64,000 nt of DNA from Oceanibacterium hippocampi. GTDB taxonomy: Bacteria; Pseudomonadota; Alphaproteobacteria; Sneathiellales; Sneathiellaceae. The translations under genes and the position numbers were made by a program. Below the pieces are notes generated by a model. It had not been told where the DNA came from. It ran no database searches and was given only the letters and a program-made list of their open reading frames with translations. The stretch spans positions 372,001 through 436,000 of the forward strand of contig NZ_FWFR01000003.1 of the NCBI RefSeq assembly GCF_900172325.1, written 5' to 3'. Below, in pieces: positions 1 to 14,710 of this stretch. Every line of letters begins with the position of its first letter. Position 1 is the stretch's first letter.

Positions 1-8
1 GAAACGAA

Positions 9-1283
9 ATGCCAGAAATCGTTGAGGAAGGCGCAGCGAAGCGCACTTTTAGTTTCTTTCGTGGCGCCGAGATAGGCGTAGAAAATTACAAATGGCCGGA
101 CGGCGCCGACAAGGCGAGACAAGCGATTGGCGAATCGCTGAATGCGCGGAATGTAGCCTTCCTCTTAGGCGCTGGCTGTTCTTCATCATGGCAAAACGGC
201 CAGGAAGTCGGCGTCCCGACCATGGCACCACTTGCAGAGGAATTCACGAGGAAGCGGAAGGACGAAGATCAGTCCTTTCCAACAGCGATAGAGCGCAGCT
301 TGCTCTTGCAGAAATTTGGGATCGACATCAGCGCCAAGGACTATTCGCGCAATCTCGAACGGCTTATGGAACTCCTGTTCAGTTTTCGCTTCAGCCTTGC
401 TCGAAGTTCCTTAAAGGAGGCCAAAGCCGAACTCTCGACCATCAACTCGGTGATCAACAAGGTCAAACACTTCCTATGGAACAAGTGTACAGGCGGTGCA
501 TTCGCCAAAGGCGACAACACCGTTATGGCACTTTACGAGTCATTTTACCGCAAGCTGGTGCTCCGCGATCGGTCATTGCCGAGGCCCTGGGTCTTCACGA
601 CGAATTACGACCTGTTCAACGAGACGGCCATGGACCGGCTCGGCCTGCCGTATGCGAACGGTTTTTCCGGCGTCGTTGAGCGCCGTTTCAATCCGGCAAC
701 GTTCCGGTACGCACTGGCCGAGCAGCTCGACGTGGCGAGCCGCAAATGGTCCGCGGTCGATGGGTTCGTATATCTCGGCAAGCTTCACGGATCGATCAGT
801 TGGACTGAAGACGATCACGGGCTGTTTCCGATCCGGGAGATAGCGATTTCTCAGCCCCCCGGTAAGGTGATGATCTTTCCGACGCCCGCGAAGCAGAACT
901 CCGCTCTGGGATCGCCTTATGCTGATCTATTCCGCGAGTTTCAGTCGCGCGTCGTGCGCGAGCAGAGCGTGCTATTTACGATAGGCTACGCCTTCGGCGA
1001 CGAGCATATCAACAACATCATCTATCAGGCACTGACTATCCCGACGTTCAGGCTCGTCATCTTCGCCGACCCGACGTTGCCGGGTGAAATCGCAAAACTT
1101 CGCGAGCTCAACGATCCACGGATATGGATTATTGGAGGGGACGGTCCGGATGTGGGCCGCAAAGCACATTATTTCGATACGGTCATCGAAGAGTTCATGC
1201 CGCAGCGCCCAAGCGAGCGAATCGACGACGCAGTGAAGAAGGTGCTGGATGCGATATCTTCAAAGAAGGCGGGAGAAGAATGA
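9..1283 (+). CDS. SIR2-domain protein, probable NADase effector of a SIR2-HerA type defence system
   Basis: The 424-residue protein has the SIR2_2-type layout. A nucleotide-binding GAG motif lies in FLLGAGCSSS (residues 51-60). An Asn is found in FTTNYD (N199), and the expected catalytic His in KLHGS (H260). A late IGYAFGD segment is typical of bacterial SIR2 effectors. Members of this family in phage-defence operons cleave NAD+ on infection; activity here is inferred from the retained Asn and His. The stop codon overlaps the start of the HerA gene as ATGA, so the two are translationally coupled. The ATG at 9 is close to the window edge and the promoter lies outside, so a further upstream start cannot be excluded. 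Confidence 0.85.
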   Translation: MPEIVEEGAAKRTFSFFRGAEIGVENYKWPDGADKARQAIGESLNARNVAFLLGAGCSSSWQNGQEVGVPTMAPLAEEFTRKRKDEDQSFPTAIERSLLLQKFGIDISAKDYSRNLERLMELLFSFRFSLARSSLKEAKAELSTINSVINKVKHFLWNKCTGGAFAKGDNTVMALYESFYRKLVLRDRSLPRPWVFTTNYDLFNETAMDRLGLPYANGFSGVVERRFNPATFRYALAEQLDVASRKWSAVDGFVYLGKLHGSISWTEDDHGLFPIREIAISQPPGKVMIFPTPAKQNSALGSPYADLFREFQSRVVREQSVLFTIGYAFGDEHINNIIYQALTIPTFRLVIFADPTLPGEIAKLRELNDPRIWIIGGDGPDVGRKAHYFDTVIEEFMPQRPSERIDDAVKKVLDAISSKKAGEE

Positions 1284-3298
1284 GCCGTGATGATCGAATG
1301 CGCGCTATCGGCAAGGTCGTATCTGTTGCGGCCGACAGGTTCGTCGTGGAAATGCACGCAGGCACCGACAACTTCACGGTCGTCGGGTTCGACGATGTGC
1401 ATTATGTGGCCCGGCTCGGATCCTTTCTCATGGTACCCATCCAAGCCGAGTATGTCGTGGTGGAAGTCGTCGGCTTGCACGAACGCGACATCGCCGGCCC
1501 TAGTCACGGTGATGGCGCGCTAGACAAGGCAGCGTCTGCGAAATATCTCGACGTCGTGCCTATCGGGATGCTGCCGCAGGATCGGAGCGAGAAGTTTCGA
1601 TTCGGCGTCTCCGTCTTCCCGTCACTCTACGCGGATGCCCTCTTCGCGCTTGATGCCGAACTCGATCGGGTATTCGAGACGGATGTTCCCGTCGAACCGG
1701 CGCCTGCGATGAACGATGTACTGCCGATACCGGCGGACGCGACGCGCTTCCGTGCCTTGACAATCGGCAAATCGGTTGTTTTCGAAGGCTATGACGTCAA
1801 GGTCCGGATAGATGATTTCTTCGGTGGCCACACGGCGGTCCTGGGCAACACCGGTAGCGGGAAGTCCTGCACCGTCGCCTCCGTGCTTCAGTCGTTGTTC
1901 GAGAAGGCGGATGAACACCATGCGCGCGGCGCTACGTTCGTCGTGTTCGACGTCAACGGCGAGTATGAGCAGGCCCTTTCGCGCCTGGCTAATGGCAACG
2001 GGATCGGGGTGGACCGCGTCGTGCTCGACGGGACGACCGCTGAAGGACGGTTCCGGCTGCCTCATTGGTTTCTGGAGCAATCCGAATGGGAGCTGCTGCT
2101 TCAGGCGAGCGAGCGAACACAGATCCCGGTGCTGCGAACGGCATTGGGACTCACAGATCTGTTTCGTCGGAATTCACCCGAAGCACTGGAGATCAAGGAG
2201 CACTTCATCGCGACATGCATCATCGAGTGCTTTCGCGGCGCTGACGGGGATTCTCCTGTCGCCAAGTTCCAACGCGTCGTGTCGCTGTTGCAGAAATACC
2301 CGACGGACGACCTGAACATGGGGCTGCTCCAGAAGTATGGCGCCAACTACCAGTACGGCAATTTCGATGGCGATAACCTTCGCCCGTTTCTGGATGAGGT
2401 TCGTGGTAAGCTTTGCGAGGATGTCGAGCTTCCTTCGTATAATCGCACGCCGTTCACATTCGACGATCTTGATGAATGTCTCGATTTCGCGATCCTCTAT
2501 GAGGAGGCACACGGTAATCGGCAGATTCGCGACTACAGTTCGCAGATGATGACGCGATTCAAGTCGCTGAAGGAACGGGCGGAATACGCGTTCCTGCGGT
2601 ATGATCTGCAGCCAGGCGATGAAGGGCCATCATTGAAAGACTTTCTGGAAGGACTTCTTGGCCTGACATCAGGCGACGGCCATCCGATCAAACGCCACCA
2701 AATCATTATCGTCGACATGAACGCTGTCGAAGACGAAGTGGTCGAGTTGGTAGCCTCTGTGCTCGCGCGGATGACATTCCGGCTGCTTCGACAGGCCGAA
2801 CCGAGAAACCGCTTTCCTGTACACCTGCTCCTGGAGGAAGCGCACCGGTATATTGCCGCGACTCCGTCTCGCCATGCCATCGACGCCAGTCGCATCTACG
2901 AACGAATTGCGAAGGAGGGCCGCAAGTATGGGCTCTTCTTGCTCGTCGCGTCCCAACGACCGAGCGAGCTTTCGAAAACGGTGCTGTCGCAGTGTTCAAA
3001 CTTTGTCATTCATCGGATCCAGAATCCGGACGATCTTTCGCAGATCCGCCAGATGACGCCTTTCATTTCTGAGGCGGTGTTGAAGCGGTTGCCGTCTCTG
3101 CCGAAGCAGCATGCGCTCGTGTTCGGAACTTCGGTTAACTTACCCACAACGTTCTGTGTGCGCGAGGCACGCCCTCTACCGAAGAGCGATGACGCAAAGA
3201 TCCGCGATCTCTGGTTTCACGAGGAGGGACGGGTCGCGCAGGTGAAAATTGGGGCGGGTGTCGGTGACGACGGGGGCGGCAATGGCCAGCGGCAATGA
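1280..3298 (+). CDS. HerA-like hexameric ATPase/translocase
   Basis: This 672-residue protein has an N-terminal HAS-barrel-like region and a HerA/FtsK-type ATPase core. Walker A is GNTGSGKS (about residues 189-196) and Walker B is HLLLEEAHR (about 514-522). A downstream SQRPSEL segment (about 557-563) and an NPDDLSQIRQ region are typical of HerA. The ATG at 1280 overlaps the SIR2 stop as ATGA and is preferred over a possible upstream start at 1124, which would run 160 bases into the SIR2 gene. HerA partners of SIR2 effectors form hexamers that assemble with and activate them, and that is the probable role here. The gene is coupled to the next one through another ATGA overlap. Confidence 0.88.
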   Translation: MSRDDRMRAIGKVVSVAADRFVVEMHAGTDNFTVVGFDDVHYVARLGSFLMVPIQAEYVVVEVVGLHERDIAGPSHGDGALDKAASAKYLDVVPIGMLPQDRSEKFRFGVSVFPSLYADALFALDAELDRVFETDVPVEPAPAMNDVLPIPADATRFRALTIGKSVVFEGYDVKVRIDDFFGGHTAVLGNTGSGKSCTVASVLQSLFEKADEHHARGATFVVFDVNGEYEQALSRLANGNGIGVDRVVLDGTTAEGRFRLPHWFLEQSEWELLLQASERTQIPVLRTALGLTDLFRRNSPEALEIKEHFIATCIIECFRGADGDSPVAKFQRVVSLLQKYPTDDLNMGLLQKYGANYQYGNFDGDNLRPFLDEVRGKLCEDVELPSYNRTPFTFDDLDECLDFAILYEEAHGNRQIRDYSSQMMTRFKSLKERAEYAFLRYDLQPGDEGPSLKDFLEGLLGLTSGDGHPIKRHQIIIVDMNAVEDEVVELVASVLARMTFRLLRQAEPRNRFPVHLLLEEAHRYIAATPSRHAIDASRIYERIAKEGRKYGLFLLVASQRPSELSKTVLSQCSNFVIHRIQNPDDLSQIRQMTPFISEAVLKRLPSLPKQHALVFGTSVNLPTTFCVREARPLPKSDDAKIRDLWFHEEGRVAQVKIGAGVGDDGGGNGQRQ

Positions 3299-4188
3299 CC
3301 GACCAAGTTGAGCTCGAGAAGCTGGCGGCGATCCTCGAAGACAGCGGGGATTACAGAATTCTCCGCCGGCTCAAGCCGCGGACCGCGGCTGGTGCTCTGG
3401 CTGACGGCGAGAGTCGGATCGGGCTTTTCGTGGATGTCGAAACGACGGGTCTCGATCCGGAAAGGGACGAAATCATCGAAATTGCAATGCTTCCCTTCCG
3501 CTACTCGCTCGACGGAGTAGTGATCGAGATCTTGGAGCCGTTCGATCGCCTGAGGGAGCCCTCGACGCCAATTCCGCAGGCTGTGACGGCACTAACTGGG
3601 ATCACGGATGACATGGTGGCCGGCCAAAAGATCGAACTCAGCGAGATATCGGAGTTCGCGGGGCCAGCGGACTTGGTGGTCGCGCACAACGCGGCGTTCG
3701 ATCGTCGCTTTCTGGAGCGGTTTTCCCAAACCTTCAGTACGAAGCCATGGGCCTGTTCCATGGCGGAGATCGATTGGGCCGCCGAAGGCTTCGAGGGCAC
3801 GAAGCTCGCGTACCTGGCGGCAGATCATGGGTTCTTCTATGAGCGTCACCGTGCGGCAAATGACTGTCTGGCGGCTGTTGAACTCTTGTCACGGACAATG
3901 CCGCGATCCGGCGTTAGCGGACTTGCCCGCTTGCTGGCGCAGGCACGACAAACAACCTGGCGCATTTGGGCGGAAAACTCTCCGTTTGAGCTCAAGGATA
4001 CATTGAAGGCTCGTGGATATCGTTGGAGCGGCGGCGACGCGAGACACCCCAAGGCTTGGCACATCGACGTCTTGGACGCACAGAAGGAAGCGGAGATCGA
4101 ATACCTTTGTCGCGAAATATATAAGAGACCGACCAAATTCCGCGCCACCAAAATCACCGCATATGATCGCTACTCCTCACGAATTTAG
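3295..4188 (+). CDS. DnaQ-like DEDDh 3'-5' exonuclease with an extra C-terminal module
   Basis: All four DEDDh acidic residues and the His are present. D47 and E49 lie in FVDVETTG, D136 in AHNAAFDRRF, and H185 and D190 in ERHRAAND. This is the fold of DNA polymerase III epsilon and related single-strand exonucleases. After residue 205 there is a roughly 90-residue tail containing LKARGYRWSGG and a following W, which is not part of the exonuclease core and may bind nucleic acid (inference). The ATG overlaps the HerA stop (ATGA), making it the third gene of one coupled operon with SIR2 and HerA. Most described SIR2-HerA systems have two genes, so the exonuclease is the unusual part. Confidence 0.85.
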   Translation: MTDQVELEKLAAILEDSGDYRILRRLKPRTAAGALADGESRIGLFVDVETTGLDPERDEIIEIAMLPFRYSLDGVVIEILEPFDRLREPSTPIPQAVTALTGITDDMVAGQKIELSEISEFAGPADLVVAHNAAFDRRFLERFSQTFSTKPWACSMAEIDWAAEGFEGTKLAYLAADHGFFYERHRAANDCLAAVELLSRTMPRSGVSGLARLLAQARQTTWRIWAENSPFELKDTLKARGYRWSGGDARHPKAWHIDVLDAQKEAEIEYLCREIYKRPTKFRATKITAYDRYSSRI

Positions 4189-4251
4189 GCGCCCTAGTAA
4201 TATTATTTTTTCCGATACACCGTAGGGTCTTCTTGCGATATTTTTGGCGTT

Positions 4252-4265
4252 CAGAGGTGGACCCG
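4252..4265 (+). repeat. Left terminal inverted repeat of the IS3 element
   Basis: The sequence cagaggtggacccg is matched perfectly by the reverse complement of 5503-5516. It lies 54 bases before the orfA start. Confidence 0.8.
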
Positions 4266-4318
4266 GTTTCTGAGGCGGGGGCATAAGGTGGATCGCCCGA
4301 TGGAAAGGACGATCCTCA

Positions 4319-4600
4319 ATGAAGACACGCAGACGGTTCACGGCCGAGTTCAAGGCCAAGGTTGCGCTTGAAGGGATCCGTGGCGAGCGGACGATTTCGG
4401 AACTGGCGACGAAGCACCAGCTTCACCCGAACCAGATCACGCAATGGAAGCGGCAGGCCATTGAGAACCTGGCCAAGGCATTCGACGACAAAGCCGCGGC
4501 TGCGCAGGTTGGCCGGGAAGCCGAGGTGACGAAGCTGCACGCCAAGATCGGCCAGCTCGTCGTCGAGCGGGATTTTTTGGCCAAAGCCTTCGATCGCTGA
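4319..4600 (+). CDS. IS3-family transposase OrfA (helix-turn-helix subunit)
   Basis: The 93-residue protein begins MKTRRRFTAEFKAKVALEG and has the helix-turn-helix pattern of IS3 OrfA proteins (TISELATKHQLHPNQITQWK). It ends with a leucine-zipper-like helix and the hallmark VVERDFLAKA. It binds the element ends and is fused to OrfB by -1 frameshifting. A slippery heptamer lies within the last codons. The reading frame is intact. Confidence 0.9.
   Translation: MKTRRRFTAEFKAKVALEGIRGERTISELATKHQLHPNQITQWKRQAIENLAKAFDDKAAAAQVGREAEVTKLHAKIGQLVVERDFLAKAFDR
4573..4579 (+). promoter_or_regulatory. Programmed -1 ribosomal frameshift site (T TTT TTG)
   Basis: In the orfA frame the codons read GAT TTT TTG, which gives the classic X XXY YYZ heptamer T TTT TTG. 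A -1 slip enters the orfB frame, which is open from here through the orfB ATG at 4618, so an OrfAB fusion can be made. The same heptamer is kept in the decayed element at 5950-5956. Confidence 0.7.
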
Positions 4601-4617
4601 GCCTGGACCGGAGGAGA

Positions 4618-5454
4618 ATGATGATCGACCCCGATCACAAGTGGCACTCGATCCACCGCCAATGCGAACTGGTCTGGATCTCGCGGACCTCGTTCTACCG
4701 ACAGCCCGCCGGCGAGAGCCCTGAGAACCTCGAACTGATGCGCCTCATCGACGAGGCGTTCATGGAGACGCCCTGGTATGGCTCGCGGCAGATGGCGCGG
4801 CCCCTGCGCCGCCAGGGCTGGTGCGTCGGCCGCAAGCGGGTCCGACGGCTTATGCGCAAGATCGGGCTGTCGCCGATCTATCAGGCTCCGAAGACCAGCG
4901 AGCCGCATCCCCAGCACCGCATCTATCCCCACCTGCTGCAACATCTGGCTATCGAGCGGCCCGATCAGGTCTGGTGTGCGGACGTGACCTACATCCCGAT
5001 GCGGCGCGGCTTCCTCTATCTTGTCGCGATCATGGACTGGTTCAGCCGCAAGGTGCTGGCCTGGCGGCTGTCGAACACGATGGAAGCCGACTTCTGCGTC
5101 GCCGCTCTTGGAGAGGCGATCGCCCGGCACGGCAAGCCCGACATCTTCAATACGGATCAGGGAAGCCAGTTCACCAGCTCCGCCTTCACGGCGACGCTGA
5201 AGGACGCCGGCATCCGCATCTCCATGGACGGGCGCGGCCGATGGATCGACAACGTCTTCATCAAGCGGCTGTGGCGCAGCCTCAAATACGAATGCGTCTT
5301 CCTCAGCGCTTTCGAGACGGGAAGCGAGGCCCGCAACGGCATCGGTTCCTGGATCGACTATTACAATCGGCGACGGCCACACTCGACCTTCGACGGCAGG
5401 ACGCCCGACGAGGTCTATGCTACTGGGGAAATGACGGAGCAATTGGCGGCGTAG
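4618..5454 (+). CDS. IS3-family transposase OrfB (DDE integrase) with the catalytic Glu replaced by Lys
   Basis: This is a 278-residue rve-type integrase subunit. The first Asp is in CADVTYIP and the second in NTDQGSQF. The family then needs a Glu exactly 35 residues after the second Asp, in the context NVFxERLWRSLKYE. Here the motif reads NVFIKRLWRSLKYE, with an AAG codon at 5263-5265 where GAG or GAA is expected. The rest of the protein, including the C-terminal YNRRRPHS motif, is intact. Loss of the catalytic Glu should abolish strand transfer, so the protein is probably inactive despite its open frame. Confidence 0.9.
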   Translation: MMIDPDHKWHSIHRQCELVWISRTSFYRQPAGESPENLELMRLIDEAFMETPWYGSRQMARPLRRQGWCVGRKRVRRLMRKIGLSPIYQAPKTSEPHPQHRIYPHLLQHLAIERPDQVWCADVTYIPMRRGFLYLVAIMDWFSRKVLAWRLSNTMEADFCVAALGEAIARHGKPDIFNTDQGSQFTSSAFTATLKDAGIRISMDGRGRWIDNVFIKRLWRSLKYECVFLSAFETGSEARNGIGSWIDYYNRRRPHSTFDGRTPDEVYATGEMTEQLAA

Positions 5455-5502
5455 AAACCAACCCGATCCACCTTAGCCAAGCCGCCAAACGGTCTCACCA
5501 GG

Positions 5503-5516
5503 CGGGTCCACCTCTG
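5503..5516 (-). repeat. Right terminal inverted repeat of the IS3 element
   Basis: The sequence cgggtccacctctg is the exact reverse complement of 4252-4265. It marks the junction with the truncated second IS3 element. Confidence 0.8.
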
Positions 5517-5529
5517 GAAGCCCTAGGCC

Positions 5530-5908
5530 AGCGAGACATAGACGATAGTCGCGCACAACAACTGGTAGGGCCGATCGACCCTAAGTCCGCGCAGCAGATA
5601 CGGGTAGTGCCGGTACCCCGGGCCGGAACGCTGATCCGCCGCTTGCTGTAGATCGACATCAGGCGCATGAGCCGCATCAGGCGACGCACCCGCTCGACGC
5701 TCACCCGCCGACCAGCCGCGCGCAGGCGCCTCGTCATCTGCCGGGCGCCGTAGAAAGGCGCGTCCAGGAACTGCCGGTCGATCTCCGCCATCAGTGCCAG
5801 GTTCTCCGGGTTCTCGCCGCTCGCCGCGTTATAGAAGCTCGACCGGCTGATCGGTACAAGGCGGCATTGCCGGACGATCGACATTGAGGGATGGTTGGGC
5901 CGGATCAT
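5530..5908 (-). pseudogene. Truncated IS3-family OrfB remnant
   Basis: The N-terminal part of an IS3 OrfB is readable on the minus strand: SRSSFYNAASGENPENLALM, FYGARQMTRRLRAAG and VERVRRLMRLM. Homology passes into another frame at about 5600, where a YPYLLRGLRVDRPYQLLCA-like stretch matches the expected OrfB sequence, and then stops at the border of the intact IS. The catalytic Asp, Asp and Glu are all missing. The missing C-terminal part is not found on the far side of the intact IS (4189-4251), so the break involved a deletion, not a simple insertion. Confidence 0.8.
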
Positions 5909-5958
5909 CGCCTTGCGCTCCTGTCGGGGAGCCTACGCAGCCTGTGTTCCAAAAAATC

Positions 5959-6219
5959 TTATTCCACCGTCAGCTCACCGATCTTCACGTACGATTCCTT
6001 GACCTCCGCGGCGTCAACTTCCGCCACGACGCGAACACGCTTGAAACTATCCGAGGCGCCGTCTAGCAGCGCCTTATTCCATTGGTGGATCATTGTCGGA
6101 TACAAGTCGAACCGGCTCACCAGCTCGGCGACCGTTTTCTGGCTATTCACCGCCTCAAGCGCCACACGTTCCCAGAATTCGGACTTGTACTGCCTGCGCT
6201 TCGTCATTGCTGATTTCAT
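5959..6219 (-). pseudogene. IS3-family OrfA of the decayed element, with a stop before the frameshift site
   Basis: The 86-residue frame begins MKSAMTKRRQYKSEFWERV and has the OrfA helix-turn-helix pattern (KTVAELVSRFDLYPTMIHQW). It ends at a TAA (complement of 5959-5961) directly before the GAT TTT TTG slippery codons. The intact neighbour has an Arg codon there. Ribosomes would therefore end before slipping, and no OrfAB could be made. The 286 bases beyond it, up to 6505, hold no gene that I can see. Confidence 0.75.
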
Positions 6220-6505
6220 TTCTTCGAAAACCAGCAGACACCCATCCCGTACCTTGCGTCACTGCCCGATTGCCGGGGAGCAGCTCAGTCTAGGCCGCCA
6301 CCATGCGCTAGCACGTTCGATGGCATGCCCCCCCCCGCAACTACGAAGGAGACGAGTAGAACCGGGAGCGGGCGAATAGTCATGGTCACAGTCTAGAACG
6401 TCTACAGGTCGTTTTGGCACGACTTGCAGGCCCTCAACTGATAGAATTGTGGGCCGTTTCGGCTGGGGCAGCAACCGGGACCCGAGGTTCAGAGAGGAGG
6501 GCTGT

Positions 6506-6955
6506 ATGCCGGAAGACCAAAAACCGAGAAGCGCAGTCCCCGCGCCAAAGGCTCAGGTTCCTACCTCGATACCTTTGAGCCCGAGTACGACGATGGACCT
6601 TTCGTGGTTACCGGATGACAAACGAGAGGCGCTGTTGGTCGAGTACACCAAAGGCATGTTGGACATCAGCAAGAAGTCTCAAGAGCTTCACGTTGACGTG
6701 GGAACGCTCAAGACCACCCTGGATCAATTGGCCTCGACCACGAAAGAGGTATCGGAAGGCGGAAACTCCGTCACTGTTACGCATACTCAAACAACTTCGA
6801 TAGGGCGAACCGAAGTCATCATGGGCAACACGTCGGAGGCGCAGGGCGGCAAGCTCACTAGCAGTCAAACGGGCCGCCGCGACATGACGCCGATTTACAT
6901 TATTTGCGGTATGATTGCCGCGGTAATTATAGCGGCAATCATTTTCAGCAAGTAA
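6506..6955 (+). CDS. Unknown small protein with a C-terminal membrane anchor
   Basis: I do not recognise the family. The 149-residue protein starts at an ATG preceded by a strong gaggagg ribosome site at 6494-6500. An in-frame start at 6449 has no such site and gives a poor leader. A Pro-rich N-terminus is followed by a helical region with heptad-like Leu spacing (about residues 45-80) and a Thr/Ser-rich stretch. The C-terminus is a single hydrophobic helix (IYIICGMIAAVIIAAIIF) ending in SK, which is the layout of a tail-anchored protein. It is the first of three tightly packed genes, the next starting 4 bases downstream. The cassette lies among defence genes. Confidence 0.7.
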   Translation: MPEDQKPRSAVPAPKAQVPTSIPLSPSTTMDLSWLPDDKREALLVEYTKGMLDISKKSQELHVDVGTLKTTLDQLASTTKEVSEGGNSVTVTHTQTTSIGRTEVIMGNTSEAQGGKLTSSQTGRRDMTPIYIICGMIAAVIIAAIIFSK

Positions 6956-6959
6956 TGCC

Positions 6960-7256
6960 GTGTTCCGCACAACCGTACGCGCTGATGAAACCACCAATGT
7001 CGAGGCAGTAGTTTCCGATCTCCGTAATCAATGTTCGCGAGCCAGCGTCTCTCCGATAGCGTCCGACCTGATCGTCACACAGGCGCGGAACGTGCTCGTG
7101 GAGTTGGTTGAGCACGGGCGCCAGTTGGCCGCCCAAGGTAGCCAATTGGCAGTCACGAGAAAGGTTGAAGCGGATGGCGTAGCCGTGACGCTCGTCTTTC
7201 GAGCGAACATCCGTCGTTCCTTCTTTGAGCGGCTAGTCAATGCATTCCGGGGGTGA
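6960..7256 (+). CDS. Unknown 98-residue protein in a three-gene cassette
   Basis: No family is recognised. The frame starts at GTG 6960, four bases after the stop of the preceding gene, and ends three bases before the next ATG. The close packing argues for a real gene although it has no obvious ribosome site of its own. The protein is soluble in character, with a predicted helix around ARNVLVELVEHGRQLAAQGS and a basic C-terminal segment (RRSFFERLVNAFRG). It may be an adaptor between the two membrane-anchored neighbours, which is inference from gene order only. Confidence 0.6.
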   Translation: MFRTTVRADETTNVEAVVSDLRNQCSRASVSPIASDLIVTQARNVLVELVEHGRQLAAQGSQLAVTRKVEADGVAVTLVFRANIRRSFFERLVNAFRG

Positions 7257-7259
7257 TAG

Positions 7260-8108
7260 ATGGCTCGCTATCGCCGCAAGTCTCGCGGCTCATACCAATC
7301 CAATTACGGATATCGCTCTCACGATATCGGATGGGAGCGCGCCCTTCAGCATATTGAGGAGGCGAAAGAGCTTTCTCGCGAGTTGGGCGGAACAGATAAG
7401 GATGTAAAGGCGTATTTCTTTTCGATCCCGCTCCATCAGCTAAAAACCATCCTGGACGAATACGAGGCGAAGTACGGCCGCAAGGCACGTGAGTATGCGG
7501 AGCGCACCTTGCCGAAGTGGCGTTCCGGGCAAGTGACTATGAGCGGCCAGAATGCGAGCCGTCTTTTCGAGCTAATCCCACCGAGAATGCCGTTGGAAGA
7601 AAAATACAAGCTGACAGAGAATCTGTGGCGTCACGTTGGCCCGAATTCGCGAAAGACGCTCCGTATTGGTCTGGACGCTAACATTGAAGATGCAATTGAG
7701 GCCGTTCGCGATCACATAGAAAAAGTCGTAATCCACTACAAGATTCCGGCAGACCTAGAACGGCGGTTTAACTGGTTGTCGGCTGGCGACGTAGACGTGA
7801 AGCAAGAACTATTGAACCACCTCCGGCAGATGGAAAGAACGTTTGTTGTCGACGGGGCGAAAACTCAGTTGCCGGTGATGTTGGAGCACCTAATTAGCGT
7901 TGATGGCCGGAATACCCACAGACTGGCCCAAATTCTCAAGGTCGGCAACCACGAATTGGAAATATTGATAGACAAAAATATCTCTGGTGTGAAGTTGGAG
8001 GATCCGTTGGGAGATGCTGGCTCCATAACTGCTTCGTCAAATTTTGGCTATATTTGGCTATTGTGGTTAATCGGGATCGCAATCGTGATTATTCTATTAG
8101 CGCAGTAG
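7260..8108 (+). CDS. Unknown 282-residue protein with a C-terminal transmembrane helix
   Basis: The N-terminus is rich in Arg, Tyr and Ser (MARYRRKSRGSYQSNYGYRS). A helical segment with the motif ELSRELGGTDKDVKAYFFS follows, then a long mostly helical region that includes ERTLPKWRSGQVTMSG and LWRHVGPNSRK. The last 25 residues form one hydrophobic helix (FGYIWLLWLIGIAIVIILLA), so the bulk should face the cytoplasm from a membrane anchor. I believe similar uncharacterised proteins exist in other bacteria, but no function can be assigned. It is the last and largest gene of the 6506-8108 cassette, and base composition is more AT-rich than in the core genes. Confidence 0.75.
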   Translation: MARYRRKSRGSYQSNYGYRSHDIGWERALQHIEEAKELSRELGGTDKDVKAYFFSIPLHQLKTILDEYEAKYGRKAREYAERTLPKWRSGQVTMSGQNASRLFELIPPRMPLEEKYKLTENLWRHVGPNSRKTLRIGLDANIEDAIEAVRDHIEKVVIHYKIPADLERRFNWLSAGDVDVKQELLNHLRQMERTFVVDGAKTQLPVMLEHLISVDGRNTHRLAQILKVGNHELEILIDKNISGVKLEDPLGDAGSITASSNFGYIWLLWLIGIAIVIILLAQ

Positions 8109-8276
8109 CAAGCGCACTAACTTAATCAGTGTATGACATCAAATGTCAACTAAACAGGAACGAGGAAAACACATCGACTGGGAAGACTGACACGGTCAAA
8201 GGGCACCCCACCATCTGCGCCTGTTCCCCCATTGAGAGTCCCCCCGATCGAAGACGATGGGCGCCCGAAGCAGAGC

Positions 8277-8996
8277 TTAATTCTTCAATTTCTCGAGAAA
8301 GCCCAGCGACAATGTTTCCATCGCTCCCATAAAGTCCTCTGGATTCTGTTCCCGGAGCTTTTCTGCCTGTTCGACGAATTCCGAAAGTAGGCCCTTCATT
8401 TCATCGGGAGCCTTTTCCAGTCGTTTAAGCATCTTCAGCGCGTTGTGGGCATAACCGAGAAACTCGGCGTTTCGCTCCGTGATCTCAACCAGCATTTCGT
8501 TGGTGATGCGCTCGCTCGGCGCGGCGAATTCGCCGTCGACCCAGTCCACGTAAAGCGCGGCGTTCTTGGCGCGATTCGACGTCTCGTGAAATTCGTCCTG
8601 AGTCTGCCTGAACGCCGCCATGGCAGCCTCCCAGTCGCCACGAGCCTTCGCATCGGTTTCGGCTTCAGAACCCTTCAGCATGTATGCATTGGATCTGTTC
8701 TTGGCCGCGTGACGCCCGAAGGCGGCGAGCACCTTCTTCTGATCGACTTCGAGCCCAAGAACCAGGCTGACCGCCCAAGCGCCGAAGTTGTTGACCTTCG
8801 AGCATTCCTCAAGCGAGATCTGGTGGAGGCAAAGGGCACGCGCCACCGCGCCAGCTTTCGCCAGAAGCTCGGCCTCGAGAAAGAGGCGCTCGGCATTATC
8901 AAATGTCTTCTCGGCGCCGCGGACGAGGACGTCCAAAGTCGCCTGGTCGCGCTTTGCGGCCTCCTCTCCTCCGTCTTCTCGCTTAGTATCGTTCAT
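8277..8996 (-). CDS. abiV: AbiV family abortive infection protein (HEPN fold)
   Basis: The 239-residue protein has the features of AbiV-type HEPN proteins. A helix runs through AERLFLEAELLAKAGAVARA, followed by LHQISLEECSKVNNFG and then FGRHAAKNRSNAYML with the His/Arg/Lys cluster of the family. AbiV blocks phage development by interfering with translation in lactococci. An equivalent role here is inference. The ATG at 8996 is chosen because upstream in-frame sequence to 9353 overlaps the divergent gene. The C-terminal 60 residues are a long charged helix. It is transcribed away from a second HEPN gene, with 73 bases between the two starts. Confidence 0.75.
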   Translation of the reverse strand: MNDTKREDGGEEAAKRDQATLDVLVRGAEKTFDNAERLFLEAELLAKAGAVARALCLHQISLEECSKVNNFGAWAVSLVLGLEVDQKKVLAAFGRHAAKNRSNAYMLKGSEAETDAKARGDWEAAMAAFRQTQDEFHETSNRAKNAALYVDWVDGEFAAPSERITNEMLVEITERNAEFLGYAHNALKMLKRLEKAPDEMKGLLSEFVEQAEKLREQNPEDFMGAMETLSLGFLEKLKN

Positions 8997-9069
8997 TGTT
9001 GTTCCGGCGTGTTGTAAGCAGGAATACATCAGCGACCGCAGACAATCGTCGTCGAAACAGGAATAGCAC

Positions 9070-10230
9070 ATGACTGCTACAGATTGGACGCCGGTCTTCG
9101 TCCTGCCGAATATTCCACTGGAAGCTGCCATCGGCTGTGAGATCGCAGCGCTCGCGCCCGCGCATGACCCCCGCGTTAGGACCCTCAAGCGGGCGCATCC
9201 CTCGTTCAGACGCTTCCTCAGCCGCTTCGCGGATAATTTCGGAGAGAAGTTCGAGCCCTCGGTCTTGCTCCTGAACACGGTCGCGCCGCCGACCTTTTGC
9301 GACGTCGCGGCGCTCGCGAGCTTCCGTGATCTCATCGCGCTCTCCGCGATCACCCGTGGCCGGGCGTTGGAACTCCAACATCCGCGCGGGCATCGCGTAC
9401 TCTTCGGCGAGGCCTTCGCGATTTATCCCTGGATGCTCGACCGGCACTATGAGGATGTGATCGGCAGCACGCCGGCCATCCTCGGCACGCATGAGCTCTC
9501 CCGCTTCAAAGGCCAATCGTCACCAGCACTGTTCCGCACGTCGCTCGGCGAGAACGACATTGACCAGCCGCTCCTTGCCTCGCTCATGGCGCGCTGGCGT
9601 CGGCGCTACGAAGTGGGTGAGCCCGCCCGGGAGAACGTCGCGCTGATGCGCTCGCTCAACATGGCGTATCACGCCTCGCTTCTGCCGGCCGGGACGGAGA
9701 CGACCTTCTACGACGTCGGGCGGGTCGTTTCCCTCTGGGTCAGTGCTTTCGAGATTCTCGTACATCCAGGCGGAAACGGCCAGGCCAACCGCGACAAGGT
9801 GTTCGAGATGATTGAGCGGACATGCTGGGCAAAGGCGGGGAGCGGCCAGCTCGCGCATGACACGGGCGGCAAAACCAAGGTGAAGCGCACGCTGGCGTCC
9901 TGGCTCTACCAGATGCTCTACGAATGCCGGAACGACTTCCTTCACGGCAATCCCGTTGAGCGCGGCAATCTCGTTCTTCCCACGCCGCAGCGGACGATTT
10001 TCGAATATGCCGCACCGCTCTACCGCATCGCACTGACTGCGTTTCTTCCACTCACATACAACGTTCCGAGGCCATCGGCCGAAGATGCACGCGCACTCGG
10101 TGCCGATATCATTGATCACATGGACTTCATGAGACCACAGAAATCTGCCGAAGCGGCACTGCTGACCGCGACGCGTCCACCCACAGGCCGCGCCGCACGC
10201 CGCGCCCGCATCACCCGCCCCGCTCCCTAG
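9070..10230 (+). CDS. HEPN-domain protein, ApeA-like, probable RNase
   Basis: The protein has 386 residues. The C-terminal third contains a HEPN signature, ECRNDFLHGN, with R287-N288 and H292 giving the R-N-x3-H arrangement of HEPN ribonucleases and of ApeA-type anti-phage proteins. The N-terminal region has no family that I recognise. The last 30 residues are basic and Pro-rich. The gene is divergent from the AbiV-type gene, and its stop codon overlaps that of the convergent gene downstream (shared CTAG). A defence role is inferred from the motif and from the surrounding genes. Confidence 0.65.
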   Translation: MTATDWTPVFVLPNIPLEAAIGCEIAALAPAHDPRVRTLKRAHPSFRRFLSRFADNFGEKFEPSVLLLNTVAPPTFCDVAALASFRDLIALSAITRGRALELQHPRGHRVLFGEAFAIYPWMLDRHYEDVIGSTPAILGTHELSRFKGQSSPALFRTSLGENDIDQPLLASLMARWRRRYEVGEPARENVALMRSLNMAYHASLLPAGTETTFYDVGRVVSLWVSAFEILVHPGGNGQANRDKVFEMIERTCWAKAGSGQLAHDTGGKTKVKRTLASWLYQMLYECRNDFLHGNPVERGNLVLPTPQRTIFEYAAPLYRIALTAFLPLTYNVPRPSAEDARALGADIIDHMDFMRPQKSAEAALLTATRPPTGRAARRARITRPAP

Positions 10231-10913
10231 CCGTCGGCGCCAGCATCCGGCTCCTCGATCAATTCTTCCGCCAGTTCCGAAAGCCACGGAGAGACATCAA
10301 CGATCTCCACCGCGCCGGCGTGGACCGCGTAATAGTCCCCGACCGTCCGGAATGCCTCGCCAAAGCGCTCCACGAACATCTTTTGTAGCTTGTCGTTCCG
10401 GCTCAGCACGCTCGACAGGGCGCGGCCGCCCCGCAGGAACTTGAACGCATGCTCAGTACCGAGCAGATAGAGATATTTTCGCTTCACCGTCGGATGCTCG
10501 GCGAGCAACAGATAATCCTTGAACACCGAATTTTGGCGGATCGATTCCGCGCCGCCCCGCCATCGTATGAATTTGAACTCGGCGACCCGCAAGTTGGTCT
10601 CCAGATCAAACTCGCGTCCGGTGTTTCCAGCACCTAGGGAAACATATTCGACCCGCTCATCGGGTTCGAGGATGTGCGGAAGGCAGAGCAAGATGCCGAG
10701 CGCATGGATGGTCACATTGATCTGCCCGGCCAGGCGCTTCATTTCGGCGGCCGCGGCCAACGCCTCCCGACCTACGCCAGCGCCCTCGAGAAAGCTTGCG
10801 CAATCGTTCGCCGCCACGCCGCGCACCGCCCTCTCGATCCGTGCAAGGGTCTGCGTCAGATCGGGACCTGTGAACTGCACGAGCAAGTCGCGAATATCCA
10901 CTGGATTCGTCAT
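10227..10913 (-). CDS. Unknown protein with a possible PD-(D/E)XK nuclease core
   Basis: The family is not recognised. In the 228-residue protein, residues 101-119 read REFDLETNLRVAEFKFIRW, placing D103, E112 and K114 in the spacing of a PD-(D/E)XK nuclease on two beta strands. It is followed by an alpha helix and a strand (KRKYLYLLGT), as expected for that fold. This is a pattern match by eye and needs a profile search. The start ATG overlaps the stop of the upstream truncated gene (ATGA), so the two once formed a coupled pair. Its stop overlaps that of the convergent HEPN gene. Confidence 0.55.
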   Translation of the reverse strand: MTNPVDIRDLLVQFTGPDLTQTLARIERAVRGVAANDCASFLEGAGVGREALAAAAEMKRLAGQINVTIHALGILLCLPHILEPDERVEYVSLGAGNTGREFDLETNLRVAEFKFIRWRGGAESIRQNSVFKDYLLLAEHPTVKRKYLYLLGTEHAFKFLRGGRALSSVLSRNDKLQKMFVERFGEAFRTVGDYYAVHAGAVEIVDVSPWLSELAEELIEEPDAGADG

Positions 10914-11275
10914 GCGCCCGCCTGATCAGCGAAACGAAGCCGATCGATCTGATTGTAGTTGATCACCGCGGGGTCGGCGCCGATCACCGGAAAGCGGCTG
11001 ACCACATAATGCACCACCTCATCCATACCCAGTTCCTGCTTCAGCCAATGTTCGTGATTACGTTCTTTCTTTAGTGCGCGCGCATAGTAGTTCGTCAGGG
11101 ACCGGTTATATCGAACATACAGCGTGCGATCAGCCTCGATCCTCGAGAGATCGATCCAGTTGTTTTTGCACTGGATGTTGAAGATGACGCCGCTGCGTGT
11201 CGCGACGACACGCCGGTCAGGGTATATCGGGACGAGCTCTCGGCTTCCGGGGCGGTCTCCCGTCCGGCCCCCCAA
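10910..11275 (-). pseudogene. C-terminal remnant of an unknown gene coupled to the preceding one
   Basis: The frame carries plausible protein sequence (GVIFNIQCKNNWIDLS, LYVRYNRSLTNYYARAL, EHWLKQELGMDEVVHYV), but it has no proper start. The only possible initiator is TTG at 11275, with no ribosome site and a low-complexity Gly/Arg/Pro leader. Its stop is coupled to the downstream gene by ATGA, as in an operon. I read it as the tail of a longer protein whose front was removed when the sequence to its right was inserted or deleted. The Q-x-K pair in FNIQCKN could be part of a nuclease site, but this is uncertain. Confidence 0.5.
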
Positions 11276-11778
11276 TAGACAGCCAGGGTGGCGTGATGCA
11301 CGTAATGGAAAAACCGGTCAGCAGGCACCGGTGTCGCTTAAATCGCCATCAAGCCTGTCCAACGGATGGGGAGCAGCTCAGGTGCCGATACGATTCCGGA
11401 AGGAATTTCACGCTCTTGAGCCCAAGTATCGAAAGGCTACCAAGTCATTGAGTTGGCGGTGTTTTTTGTATGGAAAGGGCAGGATATGAACCTGCGACCT
11501 TCTGATTATGTGTGTGGCACGTACAATGCAATTTGGCTACCGGGGCGCTCCTGTACGCTGGCCTCGTTGCCCTAACGCGAATGTTAGGCCTGCAGCAATT
11601 CCGCTCCTAGACCAGCGCCGCGGAATTGCACTGGACTTCAGCGGCAGCGTAAGCATGCATGGTGGTTGAGAGCTTCCCAGGCCCGGAGACCAGGAAGCCG
11701 CCCCGACCGGCTTGCCGGCGGGGCTCAGGCTGGTGAAAGCGCCGCGATTGCCGGGGCGCCTGAAAAAGGACCTCCAAT
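11276..11778. other. Non-coding junction between the nuclease-like pair and the recombinase cassette
   Basis: I find no convincing gene here. It holds a tRNA 3'-half remnant (11472-11510) and a small perfect hairpin, CCTAAC/GTTAGG, at 11571-11588. Just before 11779 is the promoter-proximal region of the DUF3489 gene, with an aaggac ribosome-site-like run. The break in the gene to the left and the tRNA piece mark it as a recombination junction. Confidence 0.5.
11472..11510 (-). pseudogene. tRNA 3'-half remnant, possible attachment site
   Basis: On the minus strand the sequence reads like the 3' half of a tRNA. An ATAA loop end and TCAGA stem strand are followed by variable loop AGGTC, a perfect T-stem GCAGG/CCTGC around a TTCATAT loop, and the start of an acceptor strand. 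The 5' half (D-arm, 5' anticodon stem) is absent. Integrases often use tRNA 3' ends, so this may be a leftover att site. It does not match the tRNA-Lys at 14635. The identification is by eye. Confidence 0.4.
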
Positions 11779-12303
11779 ATGGCCAGGCTCACCGATACCC
11801 AACTCGTCATGCTCTCGACCGCCGGCGCAAGGGACGACCGCGCCGTCCATCCGCTGGCTGACACGCTGACTGCCGGCAAGGGCACGCTCGCCCCGGCGCT
11901 CCGCGGCCTCCTGAAGCGGGGACTGATCGCGGAGGCGCCGGCTCCGGCCGGGTCGCAGCCCTGGCGTGAGGGCGAGACCGGCGAGCGCCTGACGCTCGTC
12001 ATCACCGACGCCGGCCTCGACGCGATCGGGCTTGGCGCAGAGGGCGCCGGCGAGACCAGCGTCCCGACGACGACGCCTCAGGCCGGTTCGGCGACAGTTT
12101 CGCCAAAGTCGTCCAAGTCGGAATCCGTGCTCAAACTCCTGCGCCGCAAGCGGGGTGCGACGGTCTGCGCGCTGCAGGAGGTAACGGGTTGGCAGCCCCA
12201 TACGGTCCGCGCCGCCCTCTCCGGCTTCCGCAAGAAGGGTGTCACCATCGAGCGGGAGAAGAACGGCCGGGGCGAGACCGTTTACCGCTCCCGGGGTGCC
12301 TGA
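11779..12303 (+). CDS. DUF3489 domain protein
   Basis: The 174-residue protein has a Ser/Thr/Pro-rich middle. Its C-terminal 60 residues (SKSESVLKLLRRKRGATVCA, TGWQPHTVRAALSGFRKKG) match DUF3489, which has the look of a winged-helix DNA-binding domain. The N-terminal part (TDTQLVMLSTAGARDDRAV) also resembles a small winged helix. Genes of this type commonly precede a DUF2924 gene and a large serine recombinase in alphaproteobacterial islands, as here. A role in controlling or directing the recombinase is plausible but unproven. Confidence 0.8.
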   Translation: MARLTDTQLVMLSTAGARDDRAVHPLADTLTAGKGTLAPALRGLLKRGLIAEAPAPAGSQPWREGETGERLTLVITDAGLDAIGLGAEGAGETSVPTTTPQAGSATVSPKSSKSESVLKLLRRKRGATVCALQEVTGWQPHTVRAALSGFRKKGVTIEREKNGRGETVYRSRGA

Positions 12304-12306
12304 ACG

Positions 12307-12759
12307 ATGGCCTCATTAAGGCCGGCAGCGGTGCCACGGAAAGCCAGTGATCCATGCGCAACGATAGACTCGCCTGTCTCTCGGGCCGACCTCGTCGCTG
12401 CGTGGGAGCAGGCCTACGGCACCCCGCCACCGAAGCGGACCAGCGAACGCCTGCTGGCACTCTCGGCAGCGTATCATCGACAGGTCGGGGAAACCGGCGG
12501 GCTCAGCCGAAAGACCCGGCGCCAACTGACCGCCTGGGCTGATGGCGCCGACAAGGAGACCGATGCGGGCAAGGCTTCCCGGGACACCGGGGCACGGCCG
12601 GGAACGCGCCTGGTCCGTGAATGGCGGGGTGAGAGCCATGTCGTCGATATCCTGGAGAACGGCGTTCTCTACAAGGGCCGGACCTTTCCCTCGCTCTCCG
12701 CGGTTGCCCGCGCCATCACCGGCGCCCGCTGGTCGGGTCCACGCTTCTTCGGCCTCTGA
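12307..12759 (+). CDS. DUF2924 domain protein
   Basis: The 150-residue protein matches DUF2924: an N-terminal helical part (LVAAWEQAYGTPPPKRTSER) and a C-terminal GTRLVREWRGESHVV and SLSAVARAITGARWSGPRFF segment. The latter resembles the small beta-rich DNA-binding domains found in recombinase partners. Its ATG follows the DUF3489 stop by three bases and its stop precedes the recombinase ATG by six, so the three genes are one operon. Confidence 0.85.
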   Translation: MASLRPAAVPRKASDPCATIDSPVSRADLVAAWEQAYGTPPPKRTSERLLALSAAYHRQVGETGGLSRKTRRQLTAWADGADKETDAGKASRDTGARPGTRLVREWRGESHVVDILENGVLYKGRTFPSLSAVARAITGARWSGPRFFGL

Positions 12760-12765
12760 CCGGCA

Positions 12766-14439
12766 ATGCCGCGCTGCGCGATCTATACCCGCAAATCCTC
12801 GGAGGAGGGCCTGGAGCAGGACTTCAACTCGCTCCAGGCCCAGCGCGAGGCCTGCGAGGCCTATGTCAGGAGCCAGCGCCAGGAGGGCTGGCGGCTCGTC
12901 AGGACGCGCTTCGATGACGGCGGCTATTCCGGCGGCAGCATCGCGCGTCCGGCGCTCCAGCACCTGCTGGAGGCGGTCTCACGGCGCGAGATCGATATCG
13001 TCGTGGTCTACAAGGTCGACCGGCTGACCCGGTCGCTCGCCGACTTCGCCAAGATCGTCGAGCACTTCGATGCCAGCGGCGTGTCCTTCGTCTCTGTCAC
13101 CCAGCAGTTCAACACCACCACCTCGATGGGGCGACTGACCCTGAACGTCCTGCTCTCCTTCGCCCAGTTCGAGCGCGAGGTCACCGCGGAGCGGATCCGC
13201 GACAAGATCGCCGCCTCCAAGCAGAAAGGCATGTGGATGGGCGGGCCAGTCCCGCTCGGCTACGACGTCCGCGATCGCAAGCTCCAGGTGAACGAGGACG
13301 AGGCCGGGATCGTCCGCTGTCTCTACGCGCTCTATCTCGAGCTTGGCAGTGTCCGGCTACTCAAGATGGAGGCAGACCGCCGCGGCATCCGGACGAAGCG
13401 GCGGACAAGGCGGTCAGGACAGCAGGTCGGGGGTCTCCCCTTCACCCGTGGCGGGCTCTACCAGTTGCTCGCCAACCCGATCCATGCCGGACGGGTCTCC
13501 CATCGGGGCAAGACCTACCCGGGCCAGCACCAGGGCATCGTCGACGTGGGTCTCTGGAACGCCGTCCAGGAGCGCCTCAAGGCCAACAGCGCGCCCCGCC
13601 ATTCCGGCACCAACGTCGCATCCCCTGCCCTGCTCGCCGGGCTCCTCCACGACGAGACCGGCGCGCGGCTCTCGCCAACCCACGCGGTCAGGAACGGGAA
13701 GCGCTATCGCTACTATGTTTCCAGGCCGCTCACGGGAGACATGACCAGGAGCGGCAGCGGCTGGCGTGTCCCGGCACCCGGGATCGAGGCCACCATCGTG
13801 ACCTTGCTCACCGACTTCCTCGGCAACCCTCGTGCACTTTGGGACGCCGTTGGTGCAGCACCGAACCGGGACCATTCGGAATCAGGCGCCGTCGCCGGCT
13901 TGATCGCGAAGCTGACCCAGGGCGAATTCGCCGTCCGGCGCACGACGTTCGAGCGCATCGTCCGGCGCATCGACCTGTCCGAGACAGAGATCTCGGTCTC
14001 GATCGACCGCGGGCAGCTGGCAGCGTTGATCGGTGCGCCTGGCCCCACCAGCGGCGAGGACGCCAGCTACCGGATGATCCGGCCGATGGAGAAGCGGCGC
14101 CGAGGCGTCGAGCGCAAGATCGTCCTGACCGGTCCGACGGCAGGTGCGCATCCCGATCCCGTTCTCTGCCGGACCATCGCCCGCGCCCATCGCTGGATGG
14201 CGGAACTCGCGAGCGGAGTCGTTTCGTCGGTCGACGCAATTGCCGAGCGGGAGCAGCAGGACGGGTCCGACGTCAGCCGGCTATTGCCGCTCGCCTTCCT
14301 CGCCCCGGACATCGTCGAGGCGATCCTCGACGGGCGCCAGCCGCCGGAGCTCACCGCCCGATCGCTCCGCGCGCTCAAGCCGATACCGGCAGACTGGGCG
14401 AAGCAGCGCGACCTGCTGGGCTTCCCGCTCCCCGCCTGA
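12766..14439 (+). CDS. Large serine recombinase (site-specific integrase)
   Basis: The 557-residue protein begins with a resolvase domain. The catalytic Ser is in IYTRKSSEEG (S11), and the expected Arg and Asp residues lie in VYKVDRLTRSLADF. A long helix follows (FAQFEREVTAERIRDKIA). A Recombinase domain (residues about 160-270) and a zinc-ribbon-like region come next, but the usual four Cys are not clear, so that region may be degenerate. It is probably the enzyme that inserted this island. The gene ends 195 bases before tRNA-Lys, with no gene between them. Confidence 0.88.
   Translation: MPRCAIYTRKSSEEGLEQDFNSLQAQREACEAYVRSQRQEGWRLVRTRFDDGGYSGGSIARPALQHLLEAVSRREIDIVVVYKVDRLTRSLADFAKIVEHFDASGVSFVSVTQQFNTTTSMGRLTLNVLLSFAQFEREVTAERIRDKIAASKQKGMWMGGPVPLGYDVRDRKLQVNEDEAGIVRCLYALYLELGSVRLLKMEADRRGIRTKRRTRRSGQQVGGLPFTRGGLYQLLANPIHAGRVSHRGKTYPGQHQGIVDVGLWNAVQERLKANSAPRHSGTNVASPALLAGLLHDETGARLSPTHAVRNGKRYRYYVSRPLTGDMTRSGSGWRVPAPGIEATIVTLLTDFLGNPRALWDAVGAAPNRDHSESGAVAGLIAKLTQGEFAVRRTTFERIVRRIDLSETEISVSIDRGQLAALIGAPGPTSGEDASYRMIRPMEKRRRGVERKIVLTGPTAGAHPDPVLCRTIARAHRWMAELASGVVSSVDAIAEREQQDGSDVSRLLPLAFLAPDIVEAILDGRQPPELTARSLRALKPIPADWAKQRDLLGFPLPA

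Positions 14440-14634: not shown

Positions 14635-14710
<76 letters not shown>

Follow-up and report, generated by a model that had tools for sequence, protein, structure and literature searches.

What do three tightly packed genes encoded between defence genes do at the bacterial membrane? We analyzed a 64,000-nucleotide stretch of Oceanibacterium hippocampi DNA (the window), focusing on genes A, B and C at positions 6506-8108, all on the + strand, for which the initial annotation had raised the prospect of a new defence or membrane-sensing system. We consider a possible new membrane-associated defence module plausible but unproven. Our preferred reading, a membrane-tethered complex of A, B and C that acts against phages or mobile elements, has in our estimate a probability of roughly 0.45.

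Gene layout and protein anatomy

The three open reading frames and their close packing were confirmed, with the GTG start of gene B lying 4 nt past the stop of gene A and gene C starting 3 nt after B (Table 1). The ribosome site of gene A is strong. Gene B has no clear ribosome site, which together with the position of its start fits coupled translation. Compared with a copy from Bryobacterales, differences at codon positions 1/2/3 were 0.33/0.17/0.74 for A, 0.51/0.37/0.72 for B and 0.37/0.26/0.67 for C, and as they are highest at position 3 in every gene we conclude that A, B and C are selected as proteins. The trio has a GC content of 0.528 versus 0.652 for window positions 20001-60000, as the initial annotation had implied in calling its GC lower. 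Neither an RNA element (Rfam search near the trio) nor a consensus promoter was found.

Table 1. Position and basis of the features of the trio and its surroundings (window coordinates).
Feature	Position	Strand	Basis
SIR2, HerA and DEDDh exonuclease genes	9..4188	+	
Two IS3-type elements	4319..6219		
Shine-Dalgarno-like AGGAGGG of gene A	6495..6501	+	sequence
Gene A, 149 aa, ATG start, tail-anchored (predicted)	6506..6955	+	ORF; homologues in L002, L005 and L006, 31-61% identity
A residues 92-109, THTQTTSIGRTEVIMGNT	6779..6832	+	alignment; best-conserved part of A across A-B-C loci
A C-terminal membrane helix (predicted), residues 130-148 of 149	6893..6949	+	Kyte-Doolittle 2.74; found at this position in every A homologue
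Gene B, 98 aa, small protein, GTG start	6960..7256	+	ORF; homologues in L005 (38%), L006 (36%) and, weakly, L002 (19%)
B residues 3-30, strand-helix resembling C residues 131-158	6966..7049	+	hhalign 19.4
B residues 41-67, helix and hairpin start resembling A residues 67-93	7080..7160	+	hhalign 22.3
B C-terminal amphipathic helix RSFFERLVNAFRG, residues 85-97	7212..7250	+	read from sequence; L005 and L006 B end similarly
Gene C, 282 aa, ATG start, tail-anchored (predicted)	7260..8108	+	ORF; homologues at 57, 55, 33, 32 and 33%
C residues 1-22, Arg/Tyr-rich N-terminal tail	7260..7325	+	residue composition
C helical domain 1, residues 45-126, hallmark WRSGxxxMSGxxAxR	7392..7637	+	alignment and model
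C domain 2, residues 130-247 (strand, three helices, hairpin; predicted)	7647..8000	+	AlphaFold2 model, pLDDT about 80 here, shallow alignment
C C-terminal membrane helix (predicted), residues 261-281 of 282	8040..8102	+	hydropathy (residues 262-280) and model
AbiV	8277..about 8970	-	
386-aa ORF	9070..10230	+	
228-aa ORF	10227..10913	-	
ORF upstream of the 228-aa ORF	10910..11275		
Serine recombinase	12766..14439		
tRNA-Lys	14635..14710		

All three protein families were absent from the libraries searched. Neither Pfam, NCBIfam, PADLOC nor PHROGs gave a convincing match to A, B or C, housekeeping families included, and no curated cut-off was reached where one exists, bearing out the claim that the proteins match no known family. 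The best E-values were 0.062 for A with Pfam FCH, 0.016 for A with a PHROG of unknown function and 0.0038 for C with PADLOC RT, over 55 aa. No known catalytic motif was found in any of the three proteins.

Protein A consists of a Pro/Thr-rich N-terminus, a helix at about residues 37-83, a hairpin motif and a C-terminal transmembrane segment, and its conserved stretch precedes the membrane helix. A predicted model of A reached a pLDDT of 58. Within A, HTQTTSIGRTEVIMGNT offers a hallmark usable for finding further copies, as does WRSGxxxMSG in C, which reads WKNGxxxLSG in the C-like protein (C') of genome G960. Hydropathy upheld the claim that two of the proteins, A and C, carry a single C-terminal membrane helix. 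In the window proteins one or two residues follow this helix. At loci with the A-B-C order, such anchors are predicted for each A and for the four C proteins alike, and no clear anchor is present in C' from a Baikal alphaproteobacterium or in a C-like protein from a Thioalkalivibrio plasmid. The arrangement suggests tail-anchored proteins with a cytoplasmic body, an orientation that we infer.

This architecture bears on one alternative, an abortive system in which A and C would cluster upon infection, their single helices would permeabilise the inner membrane, and B would bridge them or keep them inactive. Two tail anchors with almost nothing past the helix, a small partner encoded between them and defence genes as neighbours would all suit such a scheme. 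However, the Baikal and Thioalkalivibrio C relatives without a clear anchor, and the lack of a match between A, B or C and a known holin or pore family in the libraries searched, argue against it, and we regard it as unlikely.

Read by eye, protein B comprises a strand, helices, a hairpin and an amphipathic end. The description of B as a small soluble protein holds in that hydropathy detects no strong membrane helix, but B is not plainly soluble because the window, L005 and L006 copies all end in a short amphipathic helix. Profile comparison revealed stretches of B that resemble parts of A and C (Table 1), with scores reached by 0 of 100 column shuffles (maxima 14.3 for B-C and 17.5 for A-B) and by 0 of 49 reversed or rotated profiles; hhalign of A against C returned nothing. 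We read these likenesses as short shared modules suited to complex assembly, and not as proven whole-protein homology.

The N-terminal tail of C is distinguished by its composition. In six of seven homologues the combined fraction of arginine, lysine and tyrosine is 0.41-0.50 over the first 22 residues versus 0.13-0.22 in the remainder of the protein, the exception being the Thioalkalivibrio tail at 0.23. We built an AlphaFold2 model of C on four sequences; as the best model has a pLDDT of 70.3 and the other four 55 or less, the fold serves as a guide only. Searches with this model gave no E-value below 0.2 in Foldseek and a Z of at most 4.5 in VIA, under the meaningful level for helical models. 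Neither annexin nor known defence folds were among the listed Foldseek and VIA matches, which says little; the first helix of the annexin-like region has a pLDDT below 50.

We also considered annexin homology of C and set it aside. With a six-sequence profile, residues 25-69 align weakly (E 0.013) with several annexin repeats, all at one position, but the likeness is confined to one short stretch, the E-value rose to 0.1 with another alignment, and Pfam Annexin reached only 0.16 in one of six members, below its gathering score. Moreover, the conserved WRSGxxxMSG falls outside the aligned stretch.

Recurrence and spread of the trio

The initial annotation would have been undermined had the three genes not been conserved together. 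We found A, B and C in the same order at four unrelated places, with gaps of -8 to +19 nt: the window, a Vibrio harveyi conjugative plasmid (L002), and metagenome-assembled genomes (MAGs) of Bryobacterales (Acidobacteriota; L005) and Xanthobacteraceae (L006). The plasmid copy emerged from a tblastn search of plasmids with C, the two genes upstream being A and B, and scans of genome contigs yielded the MAG copies, in which C is 57% (L005) and 55% (L006) identical to that of the window and A and B are again present in order. Across the other A-B-C loci, A and C are 31-61% identical to the window copies, while B is barely recognizable in Vibrio at 19%. The two MAG contigs could be mis-binned, and that of L005, only 3.4 kb long, starts inside A.

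Conserved order and close spacing leave us in little doubt that the genes are a real, co-functioning trio. A and C of the window and the Acidobacteriota copy are about 60% identical across phyla, which points to horizontal transfer, and one horizontally mobile module is the best explanation for A, B and C. The unit has passed whole between Proteobacteria and, judging by a single MAG contig, Acidobacteriota.

Relatives with other gene contents occur as well. In the Baikal alphaproteobacterium (L007), C' is followed by a 98-aa A-like protein with a terminal helix and then by a gene we call D, and B is absent. In G960 a contig end holds the start of C', and neither A nor B precedes it, which matches the Baikal layout; the C-like gene of the Thioalkalivibrio plasmid has no A or B neighbours. 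Genome sampling recovered C in 2 of 385 members of the class, in 1 of 398 members of the phylum (the genome of the window itself) and in 1 of 340 belonging to a different class of that phylum; C is therefore rare. Weak A-profile matches in four genomes (G202, G246, G223 and G005) were not accepted, and L014 and L015 had no matching neighbours.

This distribution raises the question of whether the trio serves its carrier element, through entry or superinfection exclusion or through maintenance (conjugation, partition or stability), and not host defence. The conjugative plasmid copy, the C-like gene on another plasmid, the rare and patchy occurrence, and the island setting of the window copy with a serine recombinase at tRNA-Lys would all be expected of such a function. 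Against this, the chromosomal copies lack visible transfer genes in the stretches read, and we found no relative of C or A in 50,697 phage records or in IMG/VR. We consider this explanation possible, though on balance improbable.

Three small genes that overlap or nearly touch on mobile DNA could also represent a toxin-antitoxin-like system, in which one tail-anchored protein would be the toxin and B or the other anchored protein the antidote, and toxin-antitoxin genes do lie near the Vibrio plasmid trio. However, toxin-antitoxin pairs do not typically comprise three cistrons or two anchored proteins that are both conserved, and the Baikal module dispenses with B. We judge this account quite improbable.

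Genomic neighbourhoods

In the window, the trio lies between defence genes as initially described, with SIR2-HerA to the left and AbiV to the right. The SIR2 and HerA genes match their PADLOC models with E-values below 1e-200 and are followed by a DEDDh 3'-5' exonuclease gene that overlaps HerA by 4 nt, possibly making up a three-gene form of the system. Between these genes and the trio lie two oppositely oriented IS3-type elements, of which the second is truncated. We rejected the trio as part of a SIR2-HerA operon based on these intervening elements and on the stretches read at L002 and L006, which contain no SIR2-HerA. The low-GC region ends at a serine recombinase adjoining tRNA-Lys. Together with the conjugative plasmid copy, this recombinase substantiates the suggestion that the trio looks mobile; no second att copy of the tRNA-Lys end was found in the 32 kb left of the window or in window positions 1-14400.

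Several other genes in the region attracted our attention. Beyond AbiV, the 386-aa ORF contains YECRNDFLHGNPV, an R-x4-H motif as in HEPN ribonucleases, and has no family match; it may be another defence gene. The 228-aa ORF, with an ORF directly upstream of it, contains FDLETNLRVAEFKF, which resembles a PD-(D/E)XK core, and has no Pfam or NCBIfam match. About 0.9 kb upstream of SIR2 there is an SNase with a C-terminal sunset domain (L009 14229-15062; contig C7 370229-371062). It is 46% identical over 141 aa to an SNase encoded beside the Xanthobacteraceae trio and lies outside the window trio's operon; such genes may be widespread among these bacteria.

Two of the four intact trios have known defence genes nearby, a raw count over too few loci to establish a recurrent neighbourhood. 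The check proposed in the initial annotation, whether the trio lies near defence genes in other genomes, gave support at one further locus, the Vibrio plasmid, where a PD-T4-5 gene lies about 2 kb upstream and a resolvase followed by an MqsA-family antitoxin gene lies downstream. The Xanthobacteraceae trio has a resolvase nearby and an SNase gene, encoding a membrane or signal helix, that overlaps the start of A by 14 nt. Directly after C at this locus (L006 8812-10572) is a 586-aa protein that has no family match above threshold; reading by eye shows repeats within it, a hydrophobic segment and an end resembling SH3.

A nuclease or nuclease-like neighbour is thus present at one locus each, the SNase at L006 and D at L007. 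D (L007 9052-9582), which follows C' and A', has an N-terminal membrane helix and a nuclease-like core, GGxTE...GRxDxLT...IEV, with a match in an HTH protein encoded by an Anabaena plasmid (L029 1258-1833). After IEV the Anabaena protein reads KR and Baikal D reads ER, so D resembles nucleases in motif alone and may be inactive. Pfam, NCBIfam and PDB sequence searches gave no support for a PD-(D/E)XK nature of D.

Elsewhere, in genome G269, a truncated 109-aa A-like ORF (L012 1417-1746) overlaps the start of a YegL-like vWA gene, which is followed by a PP2C gene. This placement directly upstream suggests another role for the trio, as an accessory partner of vWA-PP2C-kinase (YegL/TerY-like) signalling triads. 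However, the ORF has neither the membrane helix nor the hairpin, and its match scores only 22 bits. Upstream of five other YegL-type triads no A-like gene is annotated, and no triad lies beside the four intact trios in the stretches read, making such a partnership highly improbable. Because those five triads lack one, we read the G269 ORF, with low confidence, as a remnant beside another module.

Proposed function and relation to known systems

We lean slightly towards a role of the trio against phages or mobile elements, whatever its mechanism. In our preferred reading, A, B and C would assemble into a heteromer at the inner membrane, on its cytoplasmic side, and be joined by their helix-hairpin modules. 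When a phage or plasmid enters, the N-terminal tail of C would retain its nucleic acid or nucleoprotein at the membrane, a contact suggested by tail composition, and the outcome would be a block at entry or early replication. This mechanism as a whole, from the complex under the membrane through the tail to the block, we hold as doubtful.

At related loci, the adjoining membrane-anchored nuclease or nuclease-like gene may be the cutter. The window operon contains no nuclease gene, so the effector there would be the membrane helices or an unlinked enzyme. A broader proposal is that the trio exemplifies a new defence system in which three proteins with shared helix-hairpin modules would capture foreign nucleic acid under the inner membrane, exchangeable membrane-anchored nucleases (SNase or PD-(D/E)XK-like) serving as effectors in some lineages; in this full form we think it rather unlikely. 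If the trio does defend cells, it would be a system outside PADLOC coverage that acts at the inner membrane. Its conservation across phyla, combined with its absence from family libraries, makes the trio worth a direct test.

As it has none of the domains or families of the three systems it most invites comparison with, TerY-P, EACC1 and SNIPE, we file the trio under no known family. The TerY-P triad is a signalling module of vWA, PP2C and kinase (PMC11090510). Like the trio it is mobile, and it occurs beside the truncated A-like gene in G269, but A, B and C are not vWA, phosphatase or kinase proteins. EACC1 systems consist of two genes, one for a small membrane protein and one of caspase type (PMC7159879); both arrangements hold a small membrane protein constant beside variable partners, whereas the trio has no peptidase and no Pfam match of any kind. 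SNIPE is a single protein composed of an N-terminal membrane region, DUF4041 and a GIY-YIG nuclease, and its example shows that a nuclease bound to the membrane can cleave the DNA of a phage as it is injected (PMC13190303). DUF4041 and GIY-YIG are unmatched in A, B and C, but the trio shares with SNIPE the membrane tethering predicted here, a proposed encounter with nucleic acid at the inner membrane and, at related loci, membrane-anchored nuclease or nuclease-like neighbours.
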